From: Tissierellia bacterium | GTDB taxonomy: Bacteria > Bacillota > Clostridia > Tissierellales > Tepidimicrobiaceae | NCBI GenBank assembly: GCA_012735215.1 | Contig: JAAYHX010000023.1 | Location: 124,001-188,000 of the forward strand | DNA: 64,000 bases | Direction of reading: 5' to 3' | Shown: positions 18,792-20,848 of the stretch, piece by piece | How positions within the stretch are numbered: position 1 is the first letter of the stretch | How the letters are laid out: every line of letters begins with the position of its first letter | Program-made: the position numbers and the translations under genes | The notes under the pieces: generated by a model | Databases searched by the model: none | What the model saw: the letters and a program-made list of their open reading frames with translations, nothing else | Told to the model about the DNA's origin: nothing

Positions 18792-19550
18792 ATGAAAAAA
18801 GGGAGTAGAGATAATGAATTGCTTAGCCATGGAGAAACTATAGAGCTGATTAAAAAAGCTCAACAGGGAGATATGGAAGCAAAGAATAAGCTGGTTATGA
18901 ACAATGTAGGTCTCGTAAAAAGCGTACTCAGGGGATTTTCTAATAGAGGTTATGAAGTAGATGATCTGTTTCAAATTGGGAGCATAGGATTATTAAAAGC
19001 CATAGATAAGTTTGATACATCCTTTAATGTAAAGTTTTCTACTTATGCTGTTCCCATGATTATTGGAGAGATTAAACGCTTTCTAAGGGATGATGGAATA
19101 ATAAAAGTTAGCAGATCCTTAAAACAGACAGCCAACAAGGTAAAATATGCAAAGGAGGATCTGGCCAAGAAGCTGGGAAGGGAGCCTACAATTAATGAAT
19201 TGTCTGAGGAACTGGATATAAACAAGGAAGAAATTGTAATGGCTATGGAATCATCCTACCATCCAGAGTACCTGTATGATGTAGTACATCAGGATGATGG
19301 AAACCCCCTTTTGTTGATTGATAAAGTTGGTTTGGAGGAAGACGGGGAAGGGGACTTAATTGATAGGATAGTCTTAAAAGAGCTGTTGAGTGAGTTAAAA
19401 GAAAGGGATAGGCAGGTTATAATCTTAAGATATTTTAAGGATAAAACCCAAGTAGAAGTTGCAAATTTATTGGGAATCTCTCAGGTTCAAGTTTCTCGAA
19501 TAGAAAAAAAGATAATAGAGGAGATGAAAAAAAAGCTGGCAAAGGCATAA
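18792..19550 (+). CDS. sigF: Sporulation sigma factor F
   Basis: A 252-residue sigma-70 family factor, the first forespore-specific sigma. Region 2 contains VDDLFQIGSIGLLKAIDKFD and FSTYAVPMIIGEIKRFLRDD; region 4 ends with TQVEVANLLGISQVQVSRIEKK. Its place after spoIIAB identifies it over the similar sigma-G. The stop codon lies inside the stem of a terminator. The gene is inactive until SpoIIAA frees the protein from SpoIIAB. Confidence 0.95.
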   Translation: MKKGSRDNELLSHGETIELIKKAQQGDMEAKNKLVMNNVGLVKSVLRGFSNRGYEVDDLFQIGSIGLLKAIDKFDTSFNVKFSTYAVPMIIGEIKRFLRDDGIIKVSRSLKQTANKVKYAKEDLAKKLGREPTINELSEELDINKEEIVMAMESSYHPEYLYDVVHQDDGNPLLLIDKVGLEEDGEGDLIDRIVLKELLSELKERDRQVIILRYFKDKTQVEVANLLGISQVQVSRIEKKIIEEMKKKLAKA

Positions 19551-19619: not shown

Positions 19620-19796
19620 ATGAATTACATAACAAAAGTATATAAAAGGAGAAAAACAGTTGTAGTTCTATTGTTTTTACTGTTATTCATAGCTGCTTGT
19701 TTTATAGGCTTTAGGGAGTTGGGAACTAATAGGGAAGCTCCCAAGAAGGCCACCTATGTATTAAACAACATTATGATAGGGAGTGAAATAATATAG
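19620..19796 (+). CDS. Small membrane or lipoprotein, first gene of spoVA operon (58 aa)
   Basis: An open frame of 58 codons, ATG 19620 to TAG 19796, with GGGGTGA four bases upstream. A Lys/Arg-rich N-terminus (KVYKRRK) is followed by a hydrophobic stretch (about residues 13-30). IAAC at residues 24-27 fits a lipobox, so the mature product might be a 32-residue lipoprotein; a plain membrane anchor is equally possible. I do not recognise a family. Its stop overlaps the apparent start of spoVAA, so it probably drives coupled translation of that gene. Confidence 0.6.
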   Translation: MNYITKVYKRRKTVVVLLFLLLFIAACFIGFRELGTNREAPKKATYVLNNIMIGSEII

Positions 19797-20416
19797 AAAA
19801 GGAACAGGTATACATCTGCTTAAATGAAAAGCATTCCTTAGATATTAATACCAATGTGTATGTTGAGGATATAGGAGAGGTATATTGCAAAGACCAAACT
19901 ATAAAGAAAAAAGTAGAAAAGGTTAGAGTATACAATAAACAGAAAGAAGAAACCTATGATTATATTACTGCAAAGGATATTATTTCTAAGGTTTTAGATA
20001 GTATTGATAATATTGATGTGACCATCATAGGTGGTCCTGATGTGCTCTTGGAGATAAAGGATAAGGAAAGTCCCAATAATATTCTTGAAATATTAAAAAT
20101 ACTAGTTATATGTGCAATCTTGTTCTTTGGTTCTGGTCTTGCTATTGTAAATTTTTATGAAGATGTAGAAATGAAAGCATCCATTGAAAAGATTCATTAC
20201 ATAATTACGGGAGAAGATGTAGAAAATCCTATGATATCTACTATTCCCCTATCCATTGGAGTTGGGCTGGGGATACTTACCTTTTTTAATAGGGTGATTA
20301 GTTTAAGCAAGAGGAGAAGACAAGAACCAGGACCCTTGGAGATAGAGCTAAATTTATATGACAAGGATATGGAAGAGGTTATTATAAAAGAATTAAAAAA
20401 CAAAGACAAAACTTAA
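19793..20416 (+). CDS. spoVAA: Stage V sporulation protein AA, apparent AUA start
   Basis: SpoVAA, a membrane protein needed for dipicolinic acid uptake into the forespore. The frame runs from a TGA at 19784 to TAA 20416. The first standard start is GTG 19856 (186 residues), but the upstream codons read EKEQVYICLNEKHSLDI, a natural SpoVAA beginning. The only codon suitably placed is ATA 19793, 7 bases after GGGAGTG (19779-19785), giving 207 residues against 206 in Bacillus. ATA also overlaps the preceding TAG as ATAG. Two hydrophobic segments lie near residues 103-120 and 155-170. The product call is firm; the start is not. Confidence 0.85.
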   Translation: MEKEQVYICLNEKHSLDINTNVYVEDIGEVYCKDQTIKKKVEKVRVYNKQKEETYDYITAKDIISKVLDSIDNIDVTIIGGPDVLLEIKDKESPNNILEILKILVICAILFFGSGLAIVNFYEDVEMKASIEKIHYIITGEDVENPMISTIPLSIGVGLGILTFFNRVISLSKRRRQEPGPLEIELNLYDKDMEEVIIKELKNKDKT

Positions 20417-20431
20417 TTTGGTGGTGAAATT

Positions 20432-20848
20432 ATGTATTCCTTTTTGTCTGCTTTTGTTGGCTTATCTGCAGGAGTAGTTATTGGAAGTGCCGCTGCTGCA
20501 TTTTTTACCCTGTTAAACTTTATCTCAAGAACAATACAGGTAGCAAATGCAAGAAAAATGGTTAAGATTTATCAAAATATTATTGCTTTAGGAGCCTCAG
20601 CTTATAGTTTTATATACTTTAGCAATATTACCTTTAAACTTAACAATATGATTAGTGCTTTAGTGTCCTTGTTTATGGGCTATTTTCTTGGCATGTTTTC
20701 TTCTGCTCTAGCTGAAGTATTGGATGTAATTCCCATATTATCAAAAAAGTTAAAGACAAAACATAGATTAAAATACATTACCACATCATTATTATTTGGG
20801 AAAACTCTAGGATCCTTGTGTTATTGGCTTATTTATGTAAAAAGGTAG
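20432..20848 (+). CDS. spoVAB: Stage V sporulation protein AB
   Basis: A 138-residue integral membrane protein with about four helices, close to the 141 residues of Bacillus SpoVAB. It starts 15 bases after spoVAA behind TTGGTGGTG. The family sits in the inner forespore membrane with the SpoVA dipicolinate channel; its exact role is not defined. The order AA-AB-AC-AD-AE is complete here. Confidence 0.88.
   Translation: MYSFLSAFVGLSAGVVIGSAAAAFFTLLNFISRTIQVANARKMVKIYQNIIALGASAYSFIYFSNITFKLNNMISALVSLFMGYFLGMFSSALAEVLDVIPILSKKLKTKHRLKYITTSLLFGKTLGSLCYWLIYVKR

Follow-up and report, generated by a model that had tools for sequence, protein, structure and literature searches.

AUA is a very rare start codon, and to our knowledge few conserved AUH starts (AUA, AUC or AUU) have been documented in bacteria. 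For IF3 genes, a non-AUG start of this kind is expected. In Staphylococcus aureus, the AUA start of infC, the AUU start of cvfC1 and the AUA start of ccpN, all with extended Shine-Dalgarno sequences (SDs), were mapped by Ribo-Ret; AUH reporters (cvfC1, ccpN, and citZ) gave ~10–30% of AUG expression in this species, and the AUA start of ccpN is conserved to Bacillus subtilis (PMC13009471). In the genome studied here and in 17 relatives, infC starts with ATT behind GGAGGTG (L210, G000:C9, around 162305, reads AGGAGGTGCAGCAAT ATT AAA GAA CTT CAA ATT AAT), and no ATG was found near the infC N-terminus in this genome and its family (L210, L211–L227). AUH initiation is thus in use in this lineage.

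The sporulation gene spoVAA of the Tissierellales appears to resemble these cases. It shares with infC a conserved AUH start with a strong SD, which infC carries as ATT in the same genomes; infC, however, uses its AUH codon in self-regulation by IF3, whereas SpoVAA is a forespore membrane protein unconnected to initiation. Similarly, ccpN (AUA; S. aureus and B. subtilis) and staphylococcal cvfC1 (AUU) combine a conserved AUH start with an extended SD, but they are unrelated genes from a different lineage, and in spoVAA, unlike in these two, AUA, AUC, and AUU interchange between species, AUG re-appears, and an upstream open reading frame (ORF) has a stop that overlaps the start. B. subtilis SpoVAA, encoded by the first gene of the spoVA operon, belongs to the same family (PF12164) and occupies the same place after sigF; the sampled spoVAA loci of Bacilli show canonical codons close to the aligned position, in contrast to the locus described below. 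The kind of start is known and spoVAA is a new member; no paper linking spoVAA to a non-canonical start was found in the literature searched.

Results

The window analyzed is a stretch of 64,000 nucleotides from a Tissierellia bacterium (contig JAAYHX010000023.1, positions 124,001 to 188,000), to which all positions below refer. It contains the gene order sigF - small ORF - spoVAA - spoVAB - spoVAC - spoVAD (Table 1). The spoVAA product was assigned to SpoVAA on both its score in a Pfam search (55.1 bits against PF12164 SporV_AA, with a curated cut-off of 25 and a match to positions 2–89 of the 90 in the profile) and its position between sigF and spoVAB/spoVAC/spoVAD, and relatives from the same family are 56–65% identical to it. 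The profile match begins at residue 6 of the open frame. In this frame, the codons following an in-frame TGA are AAT AAT ATA(19793) GAA AAG GAA CAG GTA TAC ATC, and the first in-frame ATG, GTG, or TTG, the GTG at 19856, lies 21 codons beyond the ATA. An earlier, sequence-only reading had placed the start at this ATA, giving 207 residues and an ATAG overlap with the stop of a 58-codon ORF, and had noted that ATG, GTG, and TTG are missing between the TGA and GTG 19856. Direct reading of the sequence agrees with all of its coordinates at the junction and with each of these statements, and every comparative test described below favors the proposed start.

Table 1 Features of the spoVAA region of the window.
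Feature	Position	Strand	Basis or remark
sigF (spoIIAC), upstream neighbor, canonical ATG start	18792..19550	+	TIGR02885, 365.8 bits
58-aa ORF, conserved small single-pass membrane protein between sigF and spoVAA	19620..19796	+	Homolog in 61/63 Tissierellales loci
SD of spoVAA, GGGAGTGA	19779..19786	+	-10.7 kcal/mol with 16S 3' tail; ~6-7 nt before ATA
TGA stop in spoVAA frame	19784..19786	+	Bars any in-frame start further upstream
spoVAA CDS from the putative AUA start (207 aa + stop)	19793..20416	+	PF12164, synteny, family relatives
ATA (AUA), putative start codon of spoVAA	19793..19795	+	Aligned codon ATA/ATC/ATT in 38/63 Tissierellales loci
TAG stop of small ORF, overlaps spoVAA start as ATAG	19794..19796	+	Direct reading
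GTG, first canonical codon in frame	19856..19858	+	Rejected as start: no SD, within conserved domain
spoVAB, canonical ATG start in window	20432..20848	+	PF13782, 94.1 bits

Whole-genome searches retrieved SpoVAA from 19 of the 20 genomes of the family of the window, which includes Schnuerera (placed in Tepidimicrobiaceae by NCBI), [Clostridium] ultunense (Schnuerera ultunensis), and Clostridium sp. Cult1-3. It was also found in 67 of 199 sampled genomes of the order, and the class and phylum contributed additional loci; removal of duplicates left 63 distinct Tissierellales loci. The codon aligned with the start is ATA, ATC, or ATT in 38 of them and canonical in 25. The AUH loci comprise 23 ATA, 10 ATC, and 4 ATT at the aligned column, plus one locus (L023) that the alignment had shifted and that was read by hand, in which ATA ATA follows GGGGTGATATATT and no canonical codon occurs before a TTG at +21. 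The canonical loci comprise 21 ATG, 1 GTG, and 1 TTG at the column, and 2 ATG one codon earlier (-3). AUH starts occur in Schnuerera, Anaerosalibacter, Sporosalibacterium, Thermohalobacter, Caloranaerobacter, and Anaeromonas, among other genera, and in species including Clostridium sp. Cult1 and Cult2 and Tissierella simiarum; most loci of the order carry AUH, which is present on both sides of the SpoVAA tree. The expectation of the sequence-only reading that relatives would carry ATG, with ATA unique to this genome, is not supported. On the tree, we counted ~8 changes between AUH and canonical codons and 9 among ATA, ATC, and ATT; since AUH and ATG interchange this often, the weak start is favored but not required.

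These counts bear on the possibility that the true codon is ATG, from which ATA differs by a single base, and that the ATA reflects an assembly error or decay of spoVAA in this strain. AUH codons are seen in independent assemblies of many species, and spoVAA is an intact gene in the window, with conservation extending along its 207 codons. Comparison across assemblies thus already refutes an assembly error for the order, and we consider the probability of this explanation negligible.

In order to count loci under a lenient rule, any ATG, GTG, or TTG between -12 and +8 codons of the homologous start was accepted as canonical. Even so, 15 of the 63 spoVAA loci, distributed over about nine family codes and including the window, have no canonical start. 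The same rule applied as a control to the starts of six neighboring genes left only 4 of 309 without one (three of the odd spoVAB cases described below and one contig-end artefact), a difference with a Fisher p of ~1e-9, not corrected for relatedness.

The aligned codon behaves as a start rather than as an ordinary isoleucine. Ile codons are replaced there by start codons and by nothing else, whereas other Ile columns show Ile, Val, and Leu; among 37 Ile-rich alignment columns, it is the only one in which Met takes the place of Ile (37 I, 21 M, and 2 V+L, the last two being the GTG and TTG starts). The ATA:ATC:ATT ratio of 23:10:4 at this position differs from the Ile codon usage of 563:57:354 in the same genes (chi-square p of 2e-7, not corrected for relatedness). 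Between species of the family, mismatches at codon positions 1/2/3 occur in 0/0/70% of pairs at the start codon, in 21/10/53% at codons +1 to +10, which is a coding pattern, and in 36/55/52% at codons -3 to -1, which is not. Coding thus begins exactly at the AUH codon, the pattern starting with the next codon and not extending to the three preceding ones. A recoding of AUA as Met was also considered and dismissed, given that ATC and ATT take the same role in relatives.

The coding constraint extends over codons +1 to +21, which bears on the GTG at 19856. As the first canonical codon in frame, this GTG is the start that an automatic annotator might call, with a protein shorter by 21 residues. 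However, its pairing with the 16S tail is only -1.1 kcal/mol, it lies inside the PF12164 domain, and in several AUH relatives this position holds no canonical codon. No relative has a conserved start there, and none of the other outcomes that the sequence-only reading named as refuting it was observed. Initiation at GTG 19856 is thus highly unlikely, and the AUA at 19793 is, on comparative evidence, very probably the start of spoVAA in the window.

A second candidate lies upstream. Many AUH loci have an in-frame GTG at -9, and 22 of 37 (~60%) have some upstream in-frame canonical codon, usually a GTG within the SD, making them less decisive than the 15 loci above. Were this GTG the true start where it occurs, the Ile would be residue 4 and loci like the window would have lost the GTG. 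Yet the GTG belongs to the SD itself (within GGGGTGA). If translation began at this GTG, the remaining upstream pairing would amount to -2.0 to -8.7 kcal/mol, mostly at a spacing of 0–2 nt, whereas the AUH codon is preceded by an SD of -9.5 to -14.8 kcal/mol at 3–5 nt. Moreover, two loci (L138 and L141) combine the same GTG at -9 with an ATG at the AUH position, and codons -3 to -1 lack a coding signature. At this site the window has TGA, and Thermohalobacter, Caloranaerobacter, Anaeromonas gelatinilytica, and others likewise have no in-frame GTG there. We regard a start at -9 as very unlikely and retain the AUH codon.

The SD of the window (GGGAGTGA) includes GGGAGTG at 19779–19785. AUH loci typically have GGGGTGAT or GAGGTGAT, and in every one of them (n = 37) the spacing to the AUH codon is 3–7 nt. 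Their mean pairing of -11.95 kcal/mol (n = 37) exceeds that of ATG loci, -8.67 kcal/mol (n = 21), with a Mann-Whitney p of 5e-7 that ignores relatedness; the contrast is confounded by relatedness, and the four independent pairs go in the expected direction (3.0 to 0.1 average) but are too few for significance. The SD of the window is weaker than the AUH mean. We also observed a pyrimidine (T or C) at -1 in 33 of 37 AUH loci and in 14 of 21 ATG loci. At the level of sequence comparison, the position of the start, its conservation, and its strong SD can be considered established.

The small ORF encodes a protein of 50–67 amino acids across relatives, with a transmembrane segment followed by the motif N-[KR]-E-x-P-K-[KR]-A-x-x-V. 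Searches of Pfam and NCBIfam gave no match above cut-off, and a profile detected homologs beyond the order in other clostridia such as Natronincola, Anaerosolibacter, Alkaliphilus, and Thermotalea. Its stop lies mostly at +5 of the spoVAA start, and at +1 in the window, and its end ranges from -18 to +35 among relatives. Based on this overlap, ATG loci as well as AUH loci are likely to use termination-reinitiation from the small ORF. Coupling is thus plausible, but because a strong SD is the feature that accompanies AUH, it is not needed as the sole explanation of AUH initiation.

The overlap of the two ORFs in different frames in the window could also mean that they form one protein by programmed frameshifting, in which case spoVAA would need no start codon of its own. 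Among relatives, however, the small ORF occupies any of the three frames relative to spoVAA (0, 1, or 2) rather than a fixed one, which excludes such a fusion. The junction showed no common slippery motif, and in 25 relatives an ordinary start stands at this site or beside it. This makes a fused product extremely unlikely, leaving separate initiation at the AUH codon as our preferred reading.

Two neighboring genes may also have unusual starts. The spoVAB of the window begins with a normal ATG, but in six relatives the SpoVAB N-terminus lacks a start that could be used in frame: Clostridium sp. Cult1 (L131), Cult2 (L134), [Clostridium] ultunense (L136), the metagenome-assembled genome JAAYEM010000021.1 (L130), and two genomes of the family of the window (L039 and L045). 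In all six, an SD is followed by an out-of-frame [A/G]TG GGA AAG, and the zero frame is closed by a stop shortly downstream. GGGAAAG fits the X XXY YYZ pattern of slippery heptamers. Slipping by -1 would yield M-G-K-(A/E/G/V)..., as encoded by the in-frame GTG GG(G/C) AAA GCA of sister species; from the sequence, these six are candidates for a -1 programmed frameshift at codons 2–3. Upstream, the spoIIAA start (17990 in the window), called as the nearest canonical codon without alignment, is TTG in 30 of 36 loci, and the mean SD pairing over all 36 calls is strong (-12.7 kcal/mol). This TTG, in the sigF operon just upstream, is possibly a further weak start that has been conserved.

Discussion

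Our analysis points to spoVAA of the window as an instance of a near-cognate AUH start conserved in its order, a reading to which we assign a probability of about 0.9; the start would be used with a strong SD and translational coupling and would keep SpoVAA low. As in infC, ccpN, and cvfC1, no canonical codon is present at the functional start of spoVAA in the window, AUH is kept between species, here across many families of the order, and a strong or extended SD lies at a suitable spacing.

In the proposed mechanism, the strong SD helix 3–7 nt upstream (GGGAGTGA in the window) would hold the 30S subunit, while ribosomes that complete the small ORF would terminate on top of the spoVAA start. 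The initiator tRNA-fMet(CAU) would then pair with AU and a mismatched third base, so that SpoVAA would begin with fMet. Such initiation would have a low efficiency and, if infC is a guide, would be subject to discrimination by IF3. The likely purpose would be to limit SpoVAA, which is an accessory component of the SpoVA channel, relative to SpoVAC/AD/AEb. We infer the fMet, the low efficiency, the IF3 sensitivity, the coupling, and the purpose. By analogy with the described AUH starts, the yield of SpoVAA would most likely be low and dependent on the SD, and probably sensitive to IF3. That the weak start serves to throttle SpoVAA synthesis seems to us somewhat more probable than not.

The finding adds a conserved AUH start in a sporulation gene across a whole order. 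The exchanges of AUA, AUC, AUU, and AUG between species provide natural variants for testing the role of the weak codon. Gene callers restricted to ATG, GTG, and TTG will truncate spoVAA in these genomes or place its start at the GTG within the SD.

In B. subtilis, germination is premature when SpoVAA or SpoVAB is lost, an effect that deletion of gerA suppresses (PMC11841064). It is conceivable, though we consider it unlikely, that both proteins are deliberately held low and IF3-sensitive, SpoVAA by its conserved AUH start and coupling to the unannotated membrane microprotein of the small ORF and SpoVAB, in one subclade, by a -1 frameshift at codons 2–3. If so, the two devices would together determine how much is made of the proteins with this loss phenotype. 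Given that phenotype, a translational throttle on SpoVAA and SpoVAB would bear on spore dormancy.
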